Assembly (NCBI GenBank): GCA_013388565.1
Contig: JACAEZ010000175.1
Location: 1-12,153 of the forward strand
DNA: 12,153 bases
From: Campylobacterales bacterium
Lineage (GTDB): Bacteria > Campylobacterota > Campylobacteria > Campylobacterales > JACAEZ01
Reading direction: 5' to 3'
Below the pieces are notes generated by a model. The model saw only the letters and a list, made by a program, of their open reading frames with translations. It did not search any database and had not been told where the DNA came from. The first letter of the stretch is position 1. Each line of letters starts with the position of its first letter. Shown piece by piece: positions 1,215 through 12,153 of the stretch. The position numbers and the translations under genes were made by a program.

Positions 1215-2678
1215 TCAAAATTTAATAGTAAATCTTACACCATTTTCAATATTATCAAAAGATATATTTGCACTATATTCAGATTGTAGTATCATTTTTG
1301 CAATATTCAAGCCTATTCCTGTCCCTTCTTTACCTTTTGTTGTAAAATACTCTTGAAAAATCTTATTTATATGCTCTTTTGGTATTCCACCGCCATTATC
1401 TTGAACTATTATCTGTTTATTGCTTCCATTAATATCTATAAAAATAGTTCTATCTTTTATATCATTTAAAATAAAAGCATCTTTTGAATTGTTAATCAAA
1501 ATAATAAACACTTGTGTTAATTCATTTATCAATCCATGAAGTATAAATTGATTATCTGATTTTACATTTACTTGTATCTGATTAGCTTTGATAGAAGGAT
1601 TTAAAATTTTAAGTGCATTGTTTACCGATTCAATAGCATCAAAATCTATCTTTTCTTTATTTGGTTTAAAAAAATTTCTAAAATCATCTATTGTTGTACT
1701 CATATATTTAATCTGTGAAATAGAATTTTTTACAAAATTATCCATACTCTCTTTATCCAACTCATTTTCACTAAACATATCTTCGACATTCATAATCATC
1801 AAAGACATGGCATTTAATGGTTGTTTCCATTGATGAGCAATATTTCCTATCATCTGTCCCATAGCAGCAGATTTTGACTGTTGCAATAGTAAATTATATT
1901 GATACTCCTCTTTCTCTTTTTCAAGCCTTCTTTGCATAATAATAATTATATAAATAATAAGATATATAGATAAAAATACAATAGCTGTTACACTACTTAA
2001 AATATAAAATATCTTCATGGAGTTACTAAGCAACTCATCTAATGGAACTTTTAAAGAGATAATTGCTCTAATTTCACCAACTTTTTCAAAATATCCACTA
2101 TCTGTTCCATATCTGTCTATCATCTCTTTTGGTGCATCTTTTGGGTCACCATGACATTTTAAGCAAGATTGTTGATTTGAATTTATTGGAATTGCAGTGT
2201 AAAGATACTTTTTACCATTTTCATCTAATATTTTGTCAAAATGTTTAAAAGATTGTTCATTAGCTTTTTTAATTAGCTCTGCTTCTAACTCATTTGCTTT
2301 ATTTATAGGATTTCTAGGATTGTTTGAAGCTAGTTTGTAAGAATAGGGCTCTAAATTTTGCTTTTTCATCTCTTCAATAAAAAAGTTGTGCATATTTCTT
2401 GCAATAAATGTAGAAGATAAAACCTCTGGTTGAAAAAATTCATTGTACAATTTTCCATCATACTTTAGTTTATATATAACAGGTTTTTGCATATTTTCAA
2501 CATATGAGTGTATCGCTCTGTGTTGAAAAAGTATCTGGTCAACTCTTTTATGACCCTCTTCAATAGCATATTTATTTGTATTAAAGTAGTATATATAAAC
2601 CAAAAAAAGATACGAAATAAAAAAAAGAGCACCTATAATAATAGGTGAATTTTTTTTACTTATAAAAGATTTAAACAT
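1215..2678 (-). CDS. Sensor histidine kinase with periplasmic heme-binding (Tll0287-like/DUF3365) domain
   Basis: A 487-residue membrane kinase. The N-terminal helix is at about 12-32, then a periplasmic domain to about 220, a second helix at about 223-247, and a short coiled-coil linker (249-270) with no obvious HAMP or PAS domain. The periplasmic part has CLKCH (172-176), a CxxCH c-type heme motif, in the context typical of Tll0287-like/DUF3365 sensors. The kinase core is complete: phosphoacceptor H282 in AHQWKQPLNA, N-box NN at 396-397, G1 DNGGGIP (427-433), F-box near 440-447 and G2 GTGIGL (452-457). It probably senses redox state or a small ligand through a covalently bound heme and phosphorylates a response regulator. 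No regulator gene is in the window, so its partner is unknown. The start at 2678 is supported by AAAAGG 6 bases upstream. A terminator-like hairpin lies within codons about 9-20. Confidence 0.92.
   Translation of the reverse strand: MFKSFISKKNSPIIIGALFFISYLFLVYIYYFNTNKYAIEEGHKRVDQILFQHRAIHSYVENMQKPVIYKLKYDGKLYNEFFQPEVLSSTFIARNMHNFFIEEMKKQNLEPYSYKLASNNPRNPINKANELEAELIKKANEQSFKHFDKILDENGKKYLYTAIPINSNQQSCLKCHGDPKDAPKEMIDRYGTDSGYFEKVGEIRAIISLKVPLDELLSNSMKIFYILSSVTAIVFLSIYLIIYIIIIMQRRLEKEKEEYQYNLLLQQSKSAAMGQMIGNIAHQWKQPLNAMSLMIMNVEDMFSENELDKESMDNFVKNSISQIKYMSTTIDDFRNFFKPNKEKIDFDAIESVNNALKILNPSIKANQIQVNVKSDNQFILHGLINELTQVFIILINNSKDAFILNDIKDRTIFIDINGSNKQIIVQDNGGGIPKEHINKIFQEYFTTKGKEGTGIGLNIAKMILQSEYSANISFDNIENGVRFTIKF
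2619..2657 (-). terminator. Intrinsic-terminator-like hairpin inside the 5' end of the kinase gene
   Basis: On the minus strand, a run of eight A (2657-2650) precedes CACCTAT (2647-2641), a 4-base loop and ATAGGTG (2636-2630). CTC and eight T (2626-2619) then follow. The 7-bp stem plus U-tract is the layout of a Rho-independent terminator, and the flanking A and T runs could extend the pairing. It would also work on the plus strand. It lies in codons about 8-20 of the kinase, coding for the first membrane helix, so it may act as an attenuator or simply reflect Ile/Phe-rich coding in A+T-rich DNA. The stem has only three G-C pairs, so strength is doubtful. Confidence 0.35.
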
Positions 2679-2706: not shown

Positions 2707-3027
2707 CTATTTTTTTTTACCGATACTCTCTAAAAAATCTTCTAAATTATATTTTTCTCTATATTTTTGACTCATAAGATGAATTAAAATATCGCCCATA
2801 TCAACAACAACCCAATCGTCACTCTCATCAACATGCAAAAAACTCTCCTCTTTTCTGAGGTTATCTTTTAAATAATTTAACAAAGCAAAACCATGTTTGT
2901 CTGCTAATGTAGTTGCAACTACAACAAAATCAACAAAATAATCTTTACCTCTTAAATCAAAAAATGCTACCTCTTCTGCTTTTTTTTCTTCTAGTAAAGC
3001 AACTATTTTTTTTACTCTATTTTCCAT
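2707..3027 (-). CDS. rsfS: RsfS module, possibly also translated alone from an internal start
   Basis: This is the C-terminal 106 codons of the NadD-RsfS frame, beginning MENRVKKIVALLEEKKAEEV. From this ATG the product would have the usual length of a free-standing RsfS, and the N-terminal helix is where separate RsfS proteins normally begin. GAGGG ends 5 bases before the ATG, a better ribosome binding site than that of nadD itself. The likely outcome is either a fusion, a separate RsfS, or both. The sequence alone cannot decide. Confidence 0.5.
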   Translation of the reverse strand: MENRVKKIVALLEEKKAEEVAFFDLRGKDYFVDFVVVATTLADKHGFALLNYLKDNLRKEESFLHVDESDDWVVVDMGDILIHLMSQKYREKYNLEDFLESIGKKK

Positions 3028-3567
3028 GAATACCCTCGTTTTATAAAATTTTTCAACAATTTGTTTGATACTATCTGGAATATATCTAATATCAAAATGC
3101 TCTCTTAAAAAAGAGGAGCTAATGTCTATATCGCTATCTAGTATCAAAAAATTATTTTCGCAATTATACCCTTTTCTATTTGCAACAACAACTTTTACCA
3201 TTTTTAAAAGCTCTTCATATTGAAACCACTTGTTTAAAGTTTGTAAGTTATCAGCACCAACTATTAGATATATTTTTGAAATATCATATATTTTTTTAAG
3301 TTCCAAAACTGTCTCATAAGTTGTAACTTTTCTATTTTTTGATATTTCAATATCTAATATTTTTACATTTTTATAATTTTTAAAAACCTTTTCGCACCAC
3401 TTTAGTCTTAAAAATGGTGGAGCAAAAAAAGAGTCTTTAAATGGATTTAGATATGTTGGAATAATAAATAACATATCTATATCTAACATTTTTAAAGCCC
3501 TCTCTACAACATCTACATGACCTACATGAATTGGGTCAAAACTACCACCAAAAATTGCAACATTCAT
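2707..3567 (-). CDS. nadD: Nicotinate-nucleotide adenylyltransferase fused in frame to ribosome silencing factor (NadD-RsfS)
   Basis: A 286-residue open frame made of two normally separate proteins. Residues 1-180 are NadD, which adenylates nicotinate mononucleotide with ATP in NAD synthesis. Visible motifs are GGSFDPIHVGH (7-17) with the HxGH signature, GADN (104-107) and SSSFLRE (150-156). Residues 181-286 are a full-length RsfS (DUF143), which binds ribosomal protein uL14 and blocks subunit joining; it shows DLRGKDYFVDF, ADKHG and DMGDILIHLM stretches. No stop codon separates them. At the junction M181 is preceded by GAGGG 5 bases upstream, so RsfS may also be made separately. The NadD start (3567) lies 3 bases after the cyclase stop with no clear ribosome binding site, suggesting translational coupling. 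In many bacteria nadD and rsfS are adjacent separate genes. A sequencing error removing a stop is possible but not needed to explain the frame. Confidence 0.9.
   Translation of the reverse strand: MNVAIFGGSFDPIHVGHVDVVERALKMLDIDMLFIIPTYLNPFKDSFFAPPFLRLKWCEKVFKNYKNVKILDIEISKNRKVTTYETVLELKKIYDISKIYLIVGADNLQTLNKWFQYEELLKMVKVVVANRKGYNCENNFLILDSDIDISSSFLREHFDIRYIPDSIKQIVEKFYKTRVFMENRVKKIVALLEEKKAEEVAFFDLRGKDYFVDFVVVATTLADKHGFALLNYLKDNLRKEESFLHVDESDDWVVVDMGDILIHLMSQKYREKYNLEDFLESIGKKK
3028..3037 (-). promoter_or_regulatory. Internal ribosome binding site for RsfS
   Basis: On the minus strand GAGGG (3037-3033) is followed by TATTC and ATG (3027). The same bases encode residues about 178-180 of the NadD-RsfS frame. 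This is one of the few G-rich stretches in the surrounding A+T-rich coding sequence, and its spacing is right for initiation. Confidence 0.5.
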
Positions 3568-3570
3568 TAA

Positions 3571-5742
3571 CTATTTTGTAGTAAATGTAAATACACCATC
3601 AAAATCAACAGGTGGATTTTCTATATAGTGATTACACCTATCTATATATACACTATACAAAGTTTTTGCACTCTCATCATCTTTTAATAACTGTTCAAAC
3701 AACTCTTTTGATTCTGTAAAATTTGAACTTCTATAAAATTTTAATGCTTCATGATATATATCTATAAACTCTTTTAGCTTATCATCAGCTACTCCAAAAT
3801 CTAAAACTTGAAATATATTTACAGGCTCTTTTTTACCTTTAACTCTAACAAGGTCTAAATCTCTTATAATATAATCGTTTTTCAAATTTGCTTTTGTAAA
3901 TTCTGAAATAATTATATGACTGCCATAAGGTTTATTTAAACCTTCAAGTCTTGATGCCAAATTTACAGGGTCACCAATAACCGTATAATCACTTCTACCA
4001 AAACTCCCCATTTCACCGACTGTTGATAAACCACTATTTATTCCAATACCTATATCAATAGGTGGTTTTTTTTCATTTTTTAGTTTTACATTTAAATCTT
4101 TTAATGCATGAATTTGTTTAATCGCAGCACTAACTGCAAAATCTTCATGATTGGGTAAATCATTTGGTGCATTCCAATATGCCATGATTGCATCACCTAT
4201 AAATTTATCTACTGTACCTTTATGCTCGATGATAATATCAACCATTGGTGTCATGTACTCATTTAATAGTTCAATCAATGCTTTTGGCGAACCCATAGCT
4301 TCAGATAGTGTGGTAAAATCTCTAATATCACTAAAAAATATCGTTATAAACTTCTCTTTACCCTCCATTGATAACTCATCAGGATTTTTAATAAGGTCTT
4401 CCATGACACTTGGTGAAACTTTTTTTGCAAATTTAGCTTTTATAAGCTCTTTTTGTTTTGTTTCAAAAAAGTAATTTGAGATTAGATTTAATATAAGAGT
4501 AAACATAAAAGCCAAAAGAGGAAATATCATATTAAATACCAAACCTTCATGAAACAGAAGATGTCTATATATATAATATAAAATTACAAGTAAAGAGATA
4601 GATGAAATTGAAGCAATAAGTGGTGAAGTAAATATTAAAACTGTTGTCAATACAAATACAACAGCAATAATAATTGCAAAATCAACCGCTTCTGCCCAAA
4701 GTGGTCTATAGATAAAATCTTGATTTAATATATTATCAATCATGTTAGCATGAACTTCAACCCCTACAAAAGCGGTATCAAATGGACTAACTCGCAAATC
4801 CAAAAGTCCAGATGCTGATGTTCCAATTAATATATATTTCCCCTCTACAAAACTTTTGTCAAAATTTTTATCTATAATATCAACTGCTGATAGATATTTG
4901 TATGTCTTTTTAGGACCTTTATAGTTTATAAATAATCTTCCAAATCTATCTGTTGGTATTGTTAAATCGCCAAGTTGAACATTTTCTATTCCAAGCTCTG
5001 AATAGTTTATAGTTATTTTTTTAACTCCTAAAGCAGCTCTTATCATTTCAAGTCCAAGTGATGGATAGATATAATCTTTATATTTAATAACAAGTGGCAC
5101 ACTTCTTGAAACTCCATCATTATCAGGAATTACATTAAAAAAGCCACTTGAATAACTATTATCTTGCAAAATATCAAGATTTTGAACTATTCCTTTTGAA
5201 GTTAATATAAAATCATCACTCTTTTTGTTTTTTTCAATGACAATAGCAGGAATTTGAGGCAACTTCTCTTTGTCAAAATTTGTCGGATTGTCAAAGTCAA
5301 AAACATACCCTAATATGGTAGGCGTATTAGCAACCGCTTGGGCAAAAATTTCATCATAATTTGGCAAATTTTCACTAGGAATATCATATTTATCTGCAAT
5401 TTTTTTAGGTGAACTATTGTCACTTTCAGCAAAAACAATATCAAATCCAATAACACCAGCTCCACTTTCAGCCAAATTATAAACCATTTGAGCCAAAATA
5501 TCTCTACTCCATGGCCATTGTCCAATTTTTGCCAAACTTTTTTCATCAATATCAACAATAACTATATCACTACTTGCTTGTTGAACACCTCTTTCAACAA
5601 ACATCAAATCCCTTATTTTGTTGCCAAAGTTTGCAAAATTGTTATAATAATTAAGATACAAAAATATTGTAAAAACAATTATAAACAGTGCTATTAAATA
5701 GTTAATTACAATTTTTTTATATTTAAAGAAAAATTTTTTCAT
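3571..5742 (-). CDS. CHASE2-domain class III adenylate/guanylate cyclase
   Basis: A 723-residue inner-membrane cyclase. One N-terminal helix (about 11-30) leads into a large periplasmic CHASE2 domain (about 40-345, with VDIDEKSLAKIG and WPWSR at 63-80 and a GVEVHANMI stretch near 327-335). About three helices follow (351-371, 376-392, 402-422), then a cytoplasmic class III cyclase domain (about 463-648). Catalytic residues are present: metal aspartates D472 (FSDIRDF) and D517 (KFIGDA), substrate lysine K513, and N594/R598 in GDPVNLASR. The usual base-specifying Asp is replaced by T587 (YTVIGD), a Lys/Thr pair characteristic of class IIIb adenylyl cyclases. A short TPR-like tail (653-705) ends in a PPVDFDGV motif. 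It should make cAMP in response to a periplasmic signal. It begins 3 bases after the FecR gene with no clear ribosome binding site, so the two are probably translationally coupled. The cAMP product is inferred. Confidence 0.92.
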   Translation of the reverse strand: MKKFFFKYKKIVINYLIALFIIVFTIFLYLNYYNNFANFGNKIRDLMFVERGVQQASSDIVIVDIDEKSLAKIGQWPWSRDILAQMVYNLAESGAGVIGFDIVFAESDNSSPKKIADKYDIPSENLPNYDEIFAQAVANTPTILGYVFDFDNPTNFDKEKLPQIPAIVIEKNKKSDDFILTSKGIVQNLDILQDNSYSSGFFNVIPDNDGVSRSVPLVIKYKDYIYPSLGLEMIRAALGVKKITINYSELGIENVQLGDLTIPTDRFGRLFINYKGPKKTYKYLSAVDIIDKNFDKSFVEGKYILIGTSASGLLDLRVSPFDTAFVGVEVHANMIDNILNQDFIYRPLWAEAVDFAIIIAVVFVLTTVLIFTSPLIASISSISLLVILYYIYRHLLFHEGLVFNMIFPLLAFMFTLILNLISNYFFETKQKELIKAKFAKKVSPSVMEDLIKNPDELSMEGKEKFITIFFSDIRDFTTLSEAMGSPKALIELLNEYMTPMVDIIIEHKGTVDKFIGDAIMAYWNAPNDLPNHEDFAVSAAIKQIHALKDLNVKLKNEKKPPIDIGIGINSGLSTVGEMGSFGRSDYTVIGDPVNLASRLEGLNKPYGSHIIISEFTKANLKNDYIIRDLDLVRVKGKKEPVNIFQVLDFGVADDKLKEFIDIYHEALKFYRSSNFTESKELFEQLLKDDESAKTLYSVYIDRCNHYIENPPVDFDGVFTFTTK

Positions 5743-5745
5743 GAA

Positions 5746-7773
5746 CTATTTTTTAAATCCGCTAAATGCACCAACAGCTATATTTCCACTATCAGTTCCT
5801 GCATTAAATCCACCAGCTATCGCTTGGGCAGTACTTCCAAAAAACTTTCCATTTCCACTAAAATTATCTATAGTTTGACCATCACTTACAGTTCCAGAAA
5901 ATTTGTCAAAACTAAATCCAGCAGTTTCAACTTTCCCACTATATACTTTTATATCCCAAACATTATTACTATTTTTAAAATTCATATCTCCATTTAAATT
6001 TGCATTTGCAAAATCAAAATTAAGATTTACAACACCTTCATGAATAACAGATGTTTTTTGAGCTTCAAATAAATTATATACAGAACCTATAATATCACCA
6101 TGATATGTAGCTTTTGCACCATTTGCTATAAAGTTTTTAATCACATCCTCTTTTGTTTGAGAAACACCTTCAAAAGCTTTTACCCAGCCACCATATGTAT
6201 TAGATTGAAGATTTGAACTATCAAAACTATTTTCAGCCCAATATCCGTAACTAAAATAGTCATTTGCACCAATTTGTTTAGCAACCATTTCTATCTCTTT
6301 TGATTTATTTGCTACAAACATACCATAAGCTATTTCATCAAAATTTTCTGAAAAATTTTCATTTTTGTTATCTGTTAGTTGAAAATAGCTACTTACTTGC
6401 TCTAAATTTGAACCAAAAAATCTATCATAAAAAAAAGCATCACTAACTGCTGGTGTAAAGTTTGAATAAAATTGATTTTCATCAATCATGTAGCCTGTTG
6501 GAGAAATTGCATTTTTTCCAACATTTGCAAAATATAAAACCCACTCATCTGTAGTATTGTAATATCTGTTATTTACCAAATAGCCTATATTTCCAAGCAA
6601 TAACCTATTTCCCATATCAAACATTAAATTAACTTTAGAGTTTGTACTATCTATTAATGAATATTGGCTATTATATTTCACACTTCCAGCAACAACACCA
6701 TCATAAAAACTAACTACCCTACCCTTTGAATTTCCATCCCAAAACTCATAAACTTTTTGATTTATCTCATCATATCCCATTTTTTTTGCAACATCAGAGG
6801 CTTGACTCTCTAATATAGAGGTTCTATACATCTCCAAATTTCCATATTTATCTTGTGTAAAATTTGTCATATCAGCTTTTGATAAATTATTATAATCAAT
6901 ACCTAACTCATCTTTTACATAAAATCCAAATTTTATAGGCGAATATTTATCACTTTCAATAGCTTGAACATTCAATAAATTAGACACATCAGCTTTTTTA
7001 TTACTTGCTTCTAAAAATTGTTCATACTGCTCATTTAAAGAGTTTTCCAATTTATTTAAAGCATTTAACACCAAATCGTTATCTTTAATCTCTTTAAGTG
7101 CTTCAAATACCTCTTTGAGTTTATCTTTATCAACACTCAAATCTTTAGTTAATTTTACACTTTGAATAAGCTTCGTTACTTTTTCATCTAATTTAAACCC
7201 TTTTTCAATCTTCTCTATATCATCTTTTTTAAATTTAACTGGTATTGATGGAACTAAACCTGCTTTAAACTCTGTCATCTCACCCTCTATAACATCAACT
7301 GTTTTACCATTAGCAGTTACTGTTATAGCACCTTTTAAACAAACAATCTTTTCTCGCTCTTTTGAGATAGAACCAGCAAAGTGAGTCCCTCTAATACCAC
7401 ATGTTGCACTGTTTGTTTTTAATTCAAAATTTTGTTTTGCAACTTTTGAAATTTTCCCAGTAACAGCTTTGAAAAAACCACTACTGACTTTAAATTTTGC
7501 TTCAGAATTTTCAGAATTATCAAATAGATAATTTTCTATCTCAAATGTTGAACTTTTTCCAACTCTAATAACACTCTCATCTTGAAATAGAAGTTGTGCT
7601 TGTCCATTTTCAAGAGTTTTTACAACATCTTTATTTTCTAATTTAAATCCATTTGAACCATTTAATGAATTTGTACCTCTAAGCACAACAACATTACCAC
7701 TCATTGCCACTATTTCACCAACATTAGCCAACACATAAGATGCAACTATTGAAATAAATAGTAAAACCTTCAT
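5746..7773 (-). CDS. Secreted FecR-domain protein with C-terminal TbpB-like beta-barrel domain
   Basis: A 675-residue exported protein. The signal peptide is residues 1-16 (cleavage likely after VLA; no lipobox Cys). The FecR domain is about 17-170, with ENGQAQLLFQDESVIRVG (55-72), the CGIRGTHF motif (125-132) and the strand KGAITVTANGK (147-157). A helical, Lys/Glu-rich stretch (180-265) follows. A less recognisable middle part (270-505) comes next, then a Gly-rich beta region (about 505-675). The last region has YGYW, GGW, ATYHGDIIGSVYNL, NGDMNF and a final GKFFGSTAQAIAGGF...GAFSGFKK, resembling the C-terminal barrel of TbpB/Slam-dependent cargo. FecR domains usually relay or sense signals in the periplasm. 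The gene lies between a Slam-like gene (13-base gap) and the cyclase (3-base gap), with AAGGA 6 bases before its ATG. C125 and C145 could form a disulfide. Its role as Slam cargo is inference. Confidence 0.85.
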   Translation of the reverse strand: MKVLLFISIVASYVLANVGEIVAMSGNVVVLRGTNSLNGSNGFKLENKDVVKTLENGQAQLLFQDESVIRVGKSSTFEIENYLFDNSENSEAKFKVSSGFFKAVTGKISKVAKQNFELKTNSATCGIRGTHFAGSISKEREKIVCLKGAITVTANGKTVDVIEGEMTEFKAGLVPSIPVKFKKDDIEKIEKGFKLDEKVTKLIQSVKLTKDLSVDKDKLKEVFEALKEIKDNDLVLNALNKLENSLNEQYEQFLEASNKKADVSNLLNVQAIESDKYSPIKFGFYVKDELGIDYNNLSKADMTNFTQDKYGNLEMYRTSILESQASDVAKKMGYDEINQKVYEFWDGNSKGRVVSFYDGVVAGSVKYNSQYSLIDSTNSKVNLMFDMGNRLLLGNIGYLVNNRYYNTTDEWVLYFANVGKNAISPTGYMIDENQFYSNFTPAVSDAFFYDRFFGSNLEQVSSYFQLTDNKNENFSENFDEIAYGMFVANKSKEIEMVAKQIGANDYFSYGYWAENSFDSSNLQSNTYGGWVKAFEGVSQTKEDVIKNFIANGAKATYHGDIIGSVYNLFEAQKTSVIHEGVVNLNFDFANANLNGDMNFKNSNNVWDIKVYSGKVETAGFSFDKFSGTVSDGQTIDNFSGNGKFFGSTAQAIAGGFNAGTDSGNIAVGAFSGFKK

Positions 7774-7786
7774 GACACTTCCTTTT

Positions 7787-9094
7787 TTAATAGATGTAGT
7801 TTAGATTTATAGAATACATCTCTTTTTCATACTCGACAGGCAAATATTTAGAACTATTATCTATATAATTTGCATTAAACATTACAGATAAATTACTCAT
7901 TAACTCTTTTGAAACATTTAATTGATAACTTTTGTACAAATCCATTCGTTTTTCACCACTATCTTTTGAGTAAGTATCTTCATAATCGACATCTCTTAGA
8001 TTGCATGAAATCATTAAATCAAATATATCAAAATCTCTAAAATATGCAATTTTGTAGCTATTTATTGATTTGTCTATAAATTTTGTATCAACATCTTTAG
8101 AAAGAGTCTCTTTTGCATAAGCATATCCAATAGAAACCATATTTTCATCAAATTTTTTAGAAAGAGAGATAAAAGCTTCATTAAAATTTGAATTTTTAGA
8201 ACTATCTATCTCTTTTTTGTAATATTTTTTTTGAGCTTTTACACCTGTTGTTAAAAACATCTCTTCAATAAGCGGTTTTTGAAATTTTGCACCAATAGAC
8301 AAAGAGTCCATCAAAGAGCTACCACTATATAAAATTTTATCAGCACTAATTGGAATATCTATTTTATAACCATCACCTAAAAATCCTAAACCACTACTAA
8401 CAGATAGATATGTCAAATCAAAATCTGAATTATCAAAATAGTTTTGATTATACATTGTAAAAGAGTTATCTATAAAATATCCACCTTTATTGCCAATATC
8501 ATAAACATAACTTACAAATAGAGACTCTTGTAAAAATGTATCTTCTATTTTATCATCTGCTTGTACATTTTGCTTATCCATTTTATACTCATTTTGCATA
8601 TAATTTATAAGCTCTTCACGACCAGGATTTGAATTTAAATTTGTATCATAGCCAAAACCAGCACTTACAGTTACCTTTGAAAAATCTTTTTTATCTTTAC
8701 TCTCTATAAAAGCAAACATTTTTTCAATATTTTCTTTTACATTTTGAGGTGGATTTGACTCCAATACTTTATCCAACTCACTTTTTGCAAGTTCAAGCAT
8801 GTTTAAACTAATAAATGTATCAGCCAACTCCAACCTTGCTCGTTGATGGTTTTCATCTTGCACCAACACTCTTTCAAACATTATCATAGCCTCTTCAAAA
8901 AGCCCCAATGCTTTGGCATTTAAAGCTAAGTAAAAATTTACAATAGAGTTAGATTTACTTTTATCCACTTCACTTTTAAATATCTTATATGAATTAACAT
9001 AATCTTTATTTTCATACAACTTCACTCCATCTTCTATATTTGAAGCTACAACTAATGTAGCACAAATAGAGCTAACTAATATTTTTTTTAGCAT
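7787..9094 (-). CDS. TPR plus outer-membrane beta-barrel protein, Slam (DUF560)-like
   Basis: A 435-residue envelope protein. The signal peptide (about 1-18, MLKKILVSSICATLVVAS) is followed by three or so TPR units (18-115). These include RARLELA (85-91) and NPPQNVKENI (114-123), then a short helix and GFGYDTNLN (146-154), where an alternating beta-strand region begins and runs to the end. The last residues, SINLNYIY, end in an aromatic residue as outer-membrane barrels do. TPR with an NPP-V-NI motif followed by GYDxN and a ~290-residue barrel is the layout of Slam, the translocon of type XI secretion that moves TbpB-barrel cargo to the cell surface. The next gene encodes such a barrel. ATG at 9094 is preferred over ATG at 9100 because AAGGA lies 5 bases upstream of 9094 but overlaps the earlier ATG. 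A generic TPR-porin remains possible. Confidence 0.75.
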   Translation of the reverse strand: MLKKILVSSICATLVVASNIEDGVKLYENKDYVNSYKIFKSEVDKSKSNSIVNFYLALNAKALGLFEEAMIMFERVLVQDENHQRARLELADTFISLNMLELAKSELDKVLESNPPQNVKENIEKMFAFIESKDKKDFSKVTVSAGFGYDTNLNSNPGREELINYMQNEYKMDKQNVQADDKIEDTFLQESLFVSYVYDIGNKGGYFIDNSFTMYNQNYFDNSDFDLTYLSVSSGLGFLGDGYKIDIPISADKILYSGSSLMDSLSIGAKFQKPLIEEMFLTTGVKAQKKYYKKEIDSSKNSNFNEAFISLSKKFDENMVSIGYAYAKETLSKDVDTKFIDKSINSYKIAYFRDFDIFDLMISCNLRDVDYEDTYSKDSGEKRMDLYKSYQLNVSKELMSNLSVMFNANYIDNSSKYLPVEYEKEMYSINLNYIY

Positions 9095-9104
9095 AAACAT
9101 CCTT
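9095..9104 (-). promoter_or_regulatory. Ribosome binding site that decides the start of the Slam-like gene
   Basis: AAGGA (9104-9100) is followed by TGTTT and the ATG at 9094. The upstream in-frame ATG at 9100 overlaps the AAGGA, leaving no usable spacing, so the shorter form is favoured. Its signal peptide then begins directly with MLKKI, a typical export start. Confidence 0.65.
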
Positions 9105-9110
9105 TTATAT

Positions 9111-12100
9111 TTATTTTACATATACCCAATAACCAATACCACTAGGGATAAAATCTATATTTGTATCATCAATATATCTATTTTCTTCAAATATATAGAG
9201 CTTTTCTATATTACTATATTGCTCTTTTATAGATTTAATCGAATCTATTTTTCCTCCTACTAAATTCCATCCATCTTTTAATATAGAAACATCAAAATTA
9301 TAACTATTTCCATAAAAACCTACTGTTGCATTTGATGTTGATTTTAACCAAAAACCTTCATGAGGCTTGATAATTGATGGATTTAGAATGTAATTTTTAT
9401 CTCGATATGTGTATAGTGATACTAAAATAGAACTATATTTTTCTATAGATGTATTTTTATCTACAGGAATAGATAATAAATTCCATCCATTTTTTATAGA
9501 TTGATTTATGTCACTATCTATTTTATATATCCAATAACCATCTCCACTATTTAATATATAATTATCTGTTGTATTCCATGAATTGTTTCTATATTGATAT
9601 ACAGATTTTATTTCAGGATTTAACTCTTTTATATTTTTAATGGTAGTATTTTCAGAATTACCTAATAAACTCCAACCTCTTGGATATAAATCATAGTTTT
9701 GAGTATATTCAAATCCAGTAAAATTGATATTTTGCATATTCTTAGATTTTATCCAGTAACCTTGTTTACTTTTGATTATTTCTGGGTCTTTTTGATAATT
9801 ATTGTTACTAAAAGTGTATATATAATCATAATCTTCATATATGAACATATCTGTAATATCTTTATCAATAGGCGATGATTTTTGATTCCATCCACTATTG
9901 AATTGAACTTGAATATTTTTAACCTCTCTTATATTATCATCTGTTGTTTGAGGTTTATTTGATGGAACTATGTACTCTTTATTTAATATCATCTGTTCAG
10001 TTATTTCATTCAATGTAATCATAGAACTACCTTCAATTAACATGATAGTTTTTATACCATTAAAATAGACTCTTTCTATAAATTTTGCATCATCTGAAGG
10101 TAAAATTAAAGCCAAAATTACATCTTTAGACTCTTTTTTATTAAATGTGCTATTTTGTTCTTGAAAAAATTCATAATCACCACTAAAATCAAATGATTTT
10201 CTAGTTGAATATGTCACTTTTAACCTTTTATCTAATTTGTCAAACAAAGATTTAGTTAAATCTTCAATAAGTTCAATTTTTGCACTATCAAAATCTTTTC
10301 TAACAGAGTAACTAATTTTTTCTCTTTTATTGTTATTTTTATTTATTGCTAGTATATCTGCTGTAAGGTCTAAATTATTGCTTAATTTAATTTCTGTTTG
10401 ATATTTATTACTACTATCTTCTTCAATTTTTGATGATTGTATCTCTTGTTGCTTTGTTGAGTTGAATTTAATAGCATTTTTTATAACAAATTCTCTATTT
10501 TGTCCATATTTTTCATAATTTGAAGAAATATCAACTATACCATTTGTTAATTTTAACTCTTTATATCCAGCTAAATATACAACCTCTTCAAATTGTGTAT
10601 CATTTACTGGAGTTAATGTTATATTAGTGTTATAATCTATATTTCTTTGTTGATTTTTAACATACATCTTTCTTGTTTTTGTATCAATAACTGTTTCTGT
10701 TATATTTATATCCCTTGGATTGTAACTATACTCTTTTCTTGTAGAATAGCTTACTTTCAATCTAGGCTCTTTTTTTACTATATTTCTAACATTAGATGGT
10801 TCTGTTTGTGATAAATACTCTATTGTAGCACTGTTATAATCTTTTCTTAATGAGTAATTTATAGTTTTTAGTTTTGTTTTTTTAGAAACATTTTCTGTTA
10901 TATTATACTCTCTATATAAAATATCTCTTAATGATTTTGTATCTACCAACTCTTCACTTTGAATAATAGTTGCTAAAATTTCACCATCTGATTTTGCAAT
11001 TATCTCATTTTGAATAGTTCCATTTTGAATAGCCTCTTGTTTAGTTGCTGTTATTGTTCCATCATTTGTAGCAATAATTTGACTACCTTCTTGTAAAGTT
11101 ATCTCTCTTTTTATACCATCAATATTTTCTATAACGGTTTTTGAATCCCCCTTTTTATTTGCTTCAATTTGTGTAACTACCTTATCTGTAGTTATATGAT
11201 TTGTAATAGTTCCATTTTCTTTAATTTCTGTTTTACTACCAACAGGTAAATTAATTTTAGTATCAATCCTGTCTTCATTATTTAATGTTGCCTCAATTTC
11301 GCCATTTTTTGAAATTTTAACATCTGTAACAATTTTTTCAACACTTAATACTTGTTCTATACTACCATCTTGTTTTAATGTTAACTCAGAACCAGCAATC
11401 GTATTAACAACTGATTCTAACATTTTTCCAGTACTATCTTTTATTTTAACAGTAGTTTCACTTTTTCCATCAACTTTTAAAACTATATCTGTTGTTGTTT
11501 GAATACCTGTTGTTGTATCCATTGATATATTTTCAATTTTTGTAGAACCATCTTGTAAAATTGTAGCAGTTACTCCTGCTTCAGTAGTTAAAGTAGTTTG
11601 TTTAGTTTCAATATTATCATTTTTAAGAGTAACAGTAGCAGTTACTGTACCATCTTTTGATAATTCTAAATTTGATGACACTTTGGTTCCATTTACTAAT
11701 TCTGTTAAAGTTGAGACTATTTTTTTGTTGTCTAATTCAGATATTGTTACTCCATTTAAGTTTTCTATTTGAATTTTTGTCTGTAAATCACCTTCTATTG
11801 AGCTAATAATAGTATCAATTTTTACAGATGATGAAGATGATTGAATTGCAGACGAATAAATAGATGAAATTGCAGAAGTTATAGATGAAGTTATATTATC
11901 TATATAATTATATGAAGAAGATGATGATGAATAACTATATGAACTACTATAATTATTTGGAAAAGATGTTTTAAATGAGATTAAACTACTATTTATTTCA
12001 TGATAGTAATTATCATAACACTCATTTACATTATATGAATTAACTTCTACATAAGATAAGATTACTTCATAATTTGTATTTGAATTTAAATTTGTTAGAT

Positions 12101-12153
12101 TTACTTCACTATTTTTTAACCAATTATATCCATTTGTATTTGAACCATAAAAA
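9111..12153 (-). CDS. Large repeat-rich, probably extracellular protein (5' end outside window)
   Basis: The frame is open from the right edge (first full codon at 12152) to the TAA at 9111, giving at least 1013 residues; the start lies beyond the window. The GTG at 11681 is internal, since 157 open codons with protein-like content precede it. Domains in window numbering are: the end of a fibronectin type III-like domain (1-62, LTNLNSNTNYEV...ISFKT), and a Ser/Tyr-rich linker (66-109). Beta-rich repeats with a G-S/T-x6-DGS/T core follow (about 152-372). Two copies of a module bearing paired YSxRK motifs come next (about 427-559 and 607-730). Four C-terminal GW...GYW repeats end the protein (753-1013). 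There is no membrane helix or C-terminal barrel. I do not recognise the whole protein. It looks like a surface or secreted adhesin-like protein, and the Slam-like gene begins 16 bases downstream, so the two may be functionally linked. Confidence 0.8.
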   Translation of the reverse strand, partial: FYGSNTNGYNWLKNSEVNLTNLNSNTNYEVILSYVEVNSYNVNECYDNYYHEINSSLISFKTSFPNNYSSSYSYSSSSSSYNYIDNITSSITSAISSIYSSAIQSSSSSVKIDTIISSIEGDLQTKIQIENLNGVTISELDNKKIVSTLTELVNGTKVSSNLELSKDGTVTATVTLKNDNIETKQTTLTTEAGVTATILQDGSTKIENISMDTTTGIQTTTDIVLKVDGKSETTVKIKDSTGKMLESVVNTIAGSELTLKQDGSIEQVLSVEKIVTDVKISKNGEIEATLNNEDRIDTKINLPVGSKTEIKENGTITNHITTDKVVTQIEANKKGDSKTVIENIDGIKREITLQEGSQIIATNDGTITATKQEAIQNGTIQNEIIAKSDGEILATIIQSEELVDTKSLRDILYREYNITENVSKKTKLKTINYSLRKDYNSATIEYLSQTEPSNVRNIVKKEPRLKVSYSTRKEYSYNPRDINITETVIDTKTRKMYVKNQQRNIDYNTNITLTPVNDTQFEEVVYLAGYKELKLTNGIVDISSNYEKYGQNREFVIKNAIKFNSTKQQEIQSSKIEEDSSNKYQTEIKLSNNLDLTADILAINKNNNKREKISYSVRKDFDSAKIELIEDLTKSLFDKLDKRLKVTYSTRKSFDFSGDYEFFQEQNSTFNKKESKDVILALILPSDDAKFIERVYFNGIKTIMLIEGSSMITLNEITEQMILNKEYIVPSNKPQTTDDNIREVKNIQVQFNSGWNQKSSPIDKDITDMFIYEDYDYIYTFSNNNYQKDPEIIKSKQGYWIKSKNMQNINFTGFEYTQNYDLYPRGWSLLGNSENTTIKNIKELNPEIKSVYQYRNNSWNTTDNYILNSGDGYWIYKIDSDINQSIKNGWNLLSIPVDKNTSIEKYSSILVSLYTYRDKNYILNPSIIKPHEGFWLKSTSNATVGFYGNSYNFDVSILKDGWNLVGGKIDSIKSIKEQYSNIEKLYIFEENRYIDDTNIDFIPSGIGYWVYVK
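9114..9896 (-). repeat. Four C-terminal GW...GYW protein repeats
   Basis: Four diverged copies of about 50-55 residues lie at 9896-9744, 9680-9522, 9494-9342 and 9278-9114. Each opens with G-W-N/S (SGWNQKS, RGWSLLG, NGWNLLS, DGWNLVG). Each has a central Y-x-F/Y strand (YIYTFSNN, VYQYRNN, LYTYRDK, LYIFEEN) and closes with G-Y/F-W (QGYWIK, DGYWIY, EGFWLK, IGYWVY). The pattern suggests a repeated small beta fold, perhaps for carbohydrate or surface binding; the function is not known to me. Confidence 0.8.
9963..10874 (-). repeat. Duplicated module with paired YSxRK motifs
   Basis: Two diverged copies lie at 10874-10476 and 10328-9963. Each contains two YSxRK motifs: NYSLRKDYNSATIE and SYSTRKEYSY in the first, SYSVRKDFDSAKIE and TYSTRKSFDFS in the second. 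A conserved R-LKV precedes the second motif in each. Both then carry F-E-VYLAG/F-E-RVYFNG followed by a Leu/Ile-rich strand, and end in REFVI/KEYIV. The order is the same in both copies, supporting an ancient internal duplication. I do not recognise the family. Confidence 0.7.
11037..11690 (-). repeat. Beta-rich tandem repeats with GS-x6-DGS core
   Basis: About five diverged protein repeats. Cores are GTKVSSNLELSKDGT, GVTATILQDGS, GSELTLKQDGS, GSKTEIKENGT and GSQIIATNDGT. The last three are spaced 51 residues apart and the earlier ones are less regular. The intervening sequence is Thr/Val/Ile/Lys-rich with alternating polarity, as in fibrous beta structures of surface proteins. Confidence 0.65.
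11826..11957 (-). other. Low-complexity Ser/Tyr-rich linker in the large surface protein
   Basis: 44 codons (window residues 66-109) are dominated by Ser with interspersed Tyr, Ile and Asn, between the fibronectin-like piece and the beta repeats. Serine is encoded mainly by TCA/TCT/AGT runs, giving the visible GATGAAGATGA-type plus-strand pattern. It is probably a flexible stalk or a surface-exposed linker open to modification or length variation. Confidence 0.7.

Follow-up and report, generated by a model that had tools for sequence, protein, structure and literature searches.

Why should a gene for an outer-membrane barrel protein lie directly ahead of a gene for a FecR-domain protein, with a cyclase gene immediately behind? 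This arrangement occurs in a 12,153-nucleotide stretch of DNA (the window) from a Campylobacterales bacterium, which comprises a single contig (C53; GenBank JACAEZ010000175.1) of a 1.41-Mb genome in 238 contigs, ~90% complete. An earlier note, made from the sequence alone, had read the first two genes as a type XI (Slam-like) translocon and its cargo. That pairing is supported here, as the barrel protein belongs to a family with DUF560 similarity and the C-terminal part of its neighbour is modelled as a barrel; judged by this homology, the genes are very likely an export pair. The fuller interpretation, that they form a type XI (Slam-type) pair and that the cargo serves as input protein to a module combining a CHASE2 cyclase with cyclic AMP (cAMP) signalling, is considered probable. 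Genes were called as the longest open reading frames, with no trained gene finder, and signal peptides were judged by eye.

The candidate translocon gene occupies 7787..9100 on the minus strand, its product being 437 residues long from an in-frame ATG at 9100, or 435 from 9094, where a Shine-Dalgarno-like AAGG is better placed. The motifs that had first drawn attention to it, RARLELA, NPPQNVKENI and GYDTN, begin at residues 85, 114 and 148 of the 435-residue form (9094..7787). A periplasmic tetratricopeptide-repeat (TPR) domain at residues 22–136 of 437 (8693..9037, minus strand), with a Pfam TPR_19 match over the cut-off and modelled helices to residue 136, is followed by a 14-strand outer-membrane barrel at residues 139–437 (7790..8686, minus strand; model confidence, or pLDDT, 92.5), which is assigned to the DUF560 type through its relatives. 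The anticipated DUF560/Slam similarity was found in the family, and not in the window's own protein. The DUF560 model (SlipAM, PF04575) matched 20 of 41 aligned family members at E≤0.01, and L065, a close relative with 40% identity over the full length, exceeded the cut-off of 22 bits with 28.4, as did L066 (42.2) and L067 (33.6), so that three of the five close relatives scanned pass. A PF04575 scan of the window's own genome gave no match, and control genomes gave none either. Searching PDB sequences with the barrel profile returned matches to the TPR part only (best 60 of 242), and no Slam structure was among the matches listed by Foldseek (best 50 of 1552) or VIA.

The candidate cargo gene (5746..7773, minus strand) begins 13 bases further on, the spacing given in the earlier note. 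Its 675-residue product has a Sec-type signal peptide and, as had been claimed, no lipobox, because no cysteine occurs in residues 1–40. FecR identity was confirmed by Pfam (PF04773, residues 49–150, E 8.5e-12), the domain spanning residues 17–169 in the model (7267..7725, minus strand) and resembling the periplasmic cell-surface-signalling domain of FecR/PupR. The C-terminal part, where GKFFGSTAQ and GAFSGFKK were located at residues 642 and 668, had been predicted to be barrel-like, and its model shows a barrel of eight strands, with matches to NHBA, fHbp and TbpB. The prediction of one TbpB-like barrel was correct for a C-lobe at residues 506–675 (5749..6258, minus strand), comprising a TbpB-type handle and the eight strands, and predicted to be the part recognised by Slam; it was incomplete in that the cargo is bilobed, with a weak TbpB-like N-lobe at about residues 352–503 (6265..6720, minus strand; profile match 355–478), whose modelled strands are partly of low confidence. 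The NCBIfam slam_lipo model (NF041636) gave 34.7 bits (E 1.9e-8), missing its cut-off of 80, and a homologue search with the cargo end as a single sequence matched only itself. NHBA is itself a Slam-dependent protein, and with it and the published cargo TbpB, LbpB, fHbp, HpuA and hemophilin the window protein shares a C-terminal handle and eight-strand barrel, its two lobes recalling TbpB in particular; unlike them, it has an N-terminal domain of cell-surface-signalling type and is unlipidated. Unlipidated cargo of the type XI secretion system (T11SS) has already been published (PMC12282271). In a metagenome-assembled genome (MAG) of the Desulfurivibrionaceae, a 2052-residue FecR cargo (L079:9315-15473) has four TbpB-like lobes according to profile matches, one of them weak.

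The pair is conserved across many loci. A locus query termed A1 was too diverged and was replaced by the narrower A2. In one genome scan the barrel gene adjoins a gene matching the cargo profile in 37 of 39 loci, and in the remaining two (L096 and L101) the contig stops just past the barrel gene. With the loci of further relatives added, identical sequences counted once and the window included, 52 of the 61 distinct loci have a cargo-profile gene directly adjacent to the Slam-like gene, and in every case the two share a strand. Two loci, L063 and L064 (genomes G053 and G039), were left out of this count, and of the co-occurrence tables with CHASE2 (28 Slam-like genomes), and were kept in the tables of the 61-locus analysis and in the co-occurrence test that omits profile sources; they hold weak TPR matches in 546-residue proteins, which we take to be of the Bat type. 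The nine loci with no cargo neighbour comprise four from family f23 (L039, L040, L041 and L044), four at contig ends (L053, L058, L059 and L096), and L060, where the cargo gene lies two genes off. Three f23 genomes (G038, G065 and G078) encode a FecR plus TbpB-like protein elsewhere, suggesting a functional link that extends beyond the neighbourhood. A TbpB-type lobe was found in 45 of 56 cargo-profile proteins, nine of the 56 being cut at the end of a contig or stretch, and in 13 of 17 that had been held out. Among the 53 cargo proteins whose start is complete, only two begin in a lipobox-like manner, and of these L079 is a doubtful case.

Some of these loci have features of their own. Identical Slam-like and cargo loci (L069 and L070) lie in inverted orientation on one 72-kb Thiovulum contig, representing either a real inverted repeat or an assembly artefact. 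L065, L071 and L072 come from MAG records (isolates SulCav) labelled Helicobacter cetorum, a surprising label that is possibly wrong. The FecR proteins at L056:1-741 (G070) and L057:8757-9539 (G016) have Gly-rich or Gly/His/Asn-rich tails and no lobe.

The two components also co-occur by genome. A phylogenetic profile was compiled across 80 genomes of the order, among them that of the window, and assessed with Fisher tests, which ignore shared ancestry. Matches were obtained for the Slam-like protein in 30 genomes (28 minus the two of Bat type), the TbpB-like end in 26, FecR in 40 and CHASE2 in 41, the window's genome having one match for each. Slam-like and TbpB-like matches coincide in 24 genomes, with four having the former only, two the latter only and 50 neither (p 3.6e-14); when the seven profile-source genomes and G007 were removed, with Bat-type matches counted as Slam-like, the same classes held 17, 5, 2 and 48 genomes (p 2.8e-10). 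Within the six families that contain both TbpB-like states, the presence of the two agrees in 30 of 31 genomes, the sole exception being G046, which has a weak TbpB-like match and no Slam-like match. Together with the adjacency in 52/61 loci, and in 37/39 of the first scan, this co-occurrence led to the rejection of chance neighbours as an explanation. CHASE2 was found in all 26 genomes with the TbpB-like end, including those with unlinked loci, and in 15 of the 54 others (p 9.3e-11), and is looser in the same six families, occurring in 7 of 17 TbpB-negative genomes.

The proposed signalling connection begins three bases after the cargo gene, where a CHASE2 adenylate/guanylate cyclase is encoded (3571..5742, minus strand; CHASE2 2.7e-62, Guanylate_cyc 7.7e-21). 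Of the 61 loci, 27 have a cyclase within three genes and 20 have a protein of PDEase_II, the class-II cAMP phosphodiesterases, at a distance of four genes or fewer, one or the other being present in 31; two of the three such phosphodiesterases scanned also carry GAF and HD domains. The pair in fact belongs to a published gene cluster of the Campylobacterota, which the earlier note did not foresee, consisting of a CHASE2 adenylate cyclase, a phosphodiesterase, a FecR ‘outer membrane protein’ and a TPR protein, for which one pathway has been proposed (PMC9239204). The window (3571-9100) has the cyclase, FecR and TPR genes of this cluster, and differs in lacking any phosphodiesterase among its domain matches. 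On this evidence the balance inclines towards a link between the cargo and CHASE2-cAMP signalling. Seven further genomes (G021, G025, G032, G033, G037, G042 and G075) have a FecR gene ~2 kb or less from a CHASE2 gene and no Slam-like match, and thus show the FecR-CHASE2 pairing without the export arm.

The terms ‘Slam’, ‘DUF560’, ‘TbpB’, ‘type XI’ and ‘T11SS’ are absent from the main text describing that cluster (PMC9239204), as FecR, CHASE2 and cyclase are from the main text of two T11SS surveys (PMC8406197, PMC12282271). No paper found in the open-access literature searched joins FecR with DUF560 or T11SS, treats DUF560 with Sulfurimonas, or brings together FecR, adenylate cyclase, phosphodiesterase and TbpB; FecR and TbpB are both mentioned in PMC11233812 and PMC2662411, which by their titles concern siderophore production and meningococcal iron responses. 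What appears to be new, therefore, is the joining of the TPR protein, as a Slam-type translocon, to the FecR protein, as TbpB-type cargo, within a known cluster. The statement that Slam is described mainly in Pseudomonadota needs qualification, since Slam-related sequences had been reported in all proteobacterial clades, epsilonproteobacteria included, with Campylobacter said to lack them; the neighbourhoods of the epsilon sequences are not analysed in the sections of that study available to us (PMC5449769).

How the parts might work together can be sketched from homology. The FecR/TbpB-like protein would cross the inner membrane by the Sec route, as its signal peptide indicates, after which its TbpB-type C-lobe would be recognised and threaded outward by the TPR and 14-strand barrel protein, as expected of a Slam relative. 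At the surface, one lobe or both may then adopt the handle-and-barrel fold and bind a ligand. The cargo, having no lipid anchor, would either be released or stay at the outer membrane, retained there through its FecR part or through the barrel. Finally, the FecR part could report to the CHASE2 domain of the cyclase encoded in the same operon, changing cyclic nucleotide output. A more specific version, in which the translocon places the sensor outside so that the lobes bind an external ligand while the FecR domain remains in the periplasm, or passes out of it, and thereby gates the cyclase, is offered tentatively, as a possibility that falls somewhat short of probable.

Several observations weigh against an export pair that serves cAMP signalling. 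The window's own barrel protein is too diverged for a direct DUF560 match, its TPR_Slam (PF24575) match is under the cut-off (E 0.039), and two of the five close relatives scanned (L068 and L071) have no PF04575 match. At L092, L093, L057 and L056 the Slam-like gene adjoins a FecR protein without a TbpB-like end, and no such end was found in the corresponding genomes (G080, G081, G016 and G070); the L056 protein is truncated at its start only, and still has no lobe at its end. No TbpB-like end was found either in the genomes of L096 and L101, where the neighbour is cut off (four of the eight genomes searched match), and G029 has a Slam-like match with neither a TbpB-like nor a CHASE2 match. 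The pair thus does not always have the appearance of a translocon with TbpB-type cargo. Nor is all cargo FecR-type, as the neighbour at L050 carries a lipobox and its genome gave no match to FecR. Regarding signalling, many close relatives (e.g. L032-L036) do not have the cyclase next to the pair, CHASE2 is not restricted to genomes with the TbpB-like end (the 15 of 54 above), and a search of the window's own genome, 90% complete, revealed no class-II phosphodiesterase. In Sinorhizobium meliloti, moreover, smc02177 (FecR domain), smb20495 (TPR) and smc02178 are dispensable for signal perception (PMC5498481), weighing against a direct analogy with the pathway of that organism.

Part of this evidence would suit an ordinary type XI pair, whose FecR part is a mere passenger on a binding protein or adhesin that takes no part in signalling, the cyclase being incidental: the cargo shares its fold with nutrient-binding and other surface cargo, the cyclase is often non-adjacent, and L050 provides cargo of lipobox type. 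This is judged unlikely, given that CHASE2 accompanies TbpB-like cargo in every one of the 26 genomes, even unlinked, that the FecR part matches a cell-surface-signalling domain, and that cyclase or phosphodiesterase genes are near in half of the loci (31/61). The FecR-only neighbours at L092, L093, L057 and L056, the first two with a cyclase present, would instead fit a TPR-barrel protein that is a surface receptor, for which NsrA offers a precedent (PMC7529298), the FecR/TbpB-like protein being a periplasmic relay to CHASE2 with no export. The frequency of the TbpB-type lobe, in held-out proteins also, makes this more doubtful still, as does the publication of an eight-strand barrel as common to predicted Slam-dependent cargo (PMC5449769), and the repeated lobes, up to four in L079, suggest a function at the exterior. 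An exporter of polysaccharide, of the BcsC/PgaA/PelB kind and with an incidental neighbour, would share the TPR plus barrel layout, and BcsC was the first PDB match in Foldseek (E 1.8e-11); the poor fit to BcsC, the 14 strands, and the absence of polysaccharide synthase genes among the eight window proteins scanned led to its rejection, and it retains very little credence.

The proposed type XI pair linked to the cyclase also differs from other known systems. It has the Slam/T11SS combination of a TPR N-domain and 14-strand barrel adjoining a TbpB-fold cargo gene, and departs from it in its FecR-bearing, unlipidated cargo and adjacent cyclase, and in having no TonB receptor among the eight window proteins scanned. 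The FecI-FecR-FecA and PupI-PupR-PupB systems share the FecR domain fold and a cross-envelope logic; domains of extracytoplasmic-function (ECF) sigma factors and TonB receptors are both absent from the eight window proteins scanned, for which reason a classical Fec system was rejected, and the proposed output here is a cyclic nucleotide. The signals of CHASE2 cyclases are mostly not known, and in Burkholderia a FecR-LysM protein lies beside a CHASE2 kinase (PMC5192318). In S. meliloti, CHASE2 cyclases (CyaK, CyaD1 and CyaD2) answer a protein signal via the outer-membrane protein NsrA (PMC13001267, PMC7529298), again a barrel protein feeding CHASE2 cyclases, but one with its barrel portion at residues 600-1200 and with no mention of Slam-type export in the available sections of that report (PMC7529298).

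The FecR branch extends to the Gammaproteobacteria, the class of Thiomicrospira. Among 185 genomes, 20 have a PF04575 match at E≤0.001, 14 of them over the cut-off. From 26 such matches in the class, to which the genome of L075 belongs, 20 stretches were examined, and the FecR-cargo profile matched a protein in 14; in ten it is directly beside a called barrel gene, and in the other four the barrel gene was missed in gene calling. Six stretches have no such match, three of them from genome G236, where one locus (L130) has a TbpB-like neighbour without FecR. An alignment (A6) of the ends of 12 of the 17 FecR-profile proteins from the class, leaving out four with no obvious barrel end and one from L134, matched the A4 profile (hhalign probability 94.3, E 1e-7) and, in the PDB, TbpB (3.2e-5), so in this class, too, DUF560 relatives probably often belong to a FecR branch. 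The genome of L075 (G086) holds the system yet has no PF04575 match, indicating that this model undercounts. The protein omitted from L134 (1019-4624) is a 1201-residue frame with a FecR-cargo profile match and an outer-membrane-barrel-like end, similar in size to S. meliloti NsrA.

All larger reading frames of the window are on the minus strand. The run opens with an open-ended frame of at least 1013 residues (12152..9111), which ends 10 bases before the Slam-like gene; it contains repeated units of the GWNL...GYWI type, has no match in a Pfam scan, and has a 1750-residue relative at the equivalent locus in L032/L065 (phmmer 3.9e-78), and is possibly another surface protein of the operon. Behind the cyclase lie a 286-residue NadD-RsfS fusion (2707-3567, minus strand; PF01467 and PF02410), a histidine kinase of the same run whose sensor domain is Tll0287-like (1215-2678, minus strand), a DUF502 protein and a phosphoesterase. 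Gaps of 3 to 13 bases separate the first five genes (16 where the barrel gene starts at 9094), which accordingly look like one operon.

If the version with an external sensor is correct, Slam in Campylobacterota, Desulfobacterota and environmental Gammaproteobacteria would serve signalling, not the capture of nutrients. Type XI-like pairs would extend to FecR-domain cargo in loci that belong, by record title, to Campylobacterota, Desulfobulbaceae/Desulfobacteraceae and Thiomicrospira/Hydrogenovibrio. In the cAMP cluster, the ‘TPR protein’ and the ‘FecR outer membrane protein’, both so far unexplained, gain concrete candidate roles, as translocon and cargo respectively, which suggests how CHASE2 cyclases could learn of conditions outside the cell.

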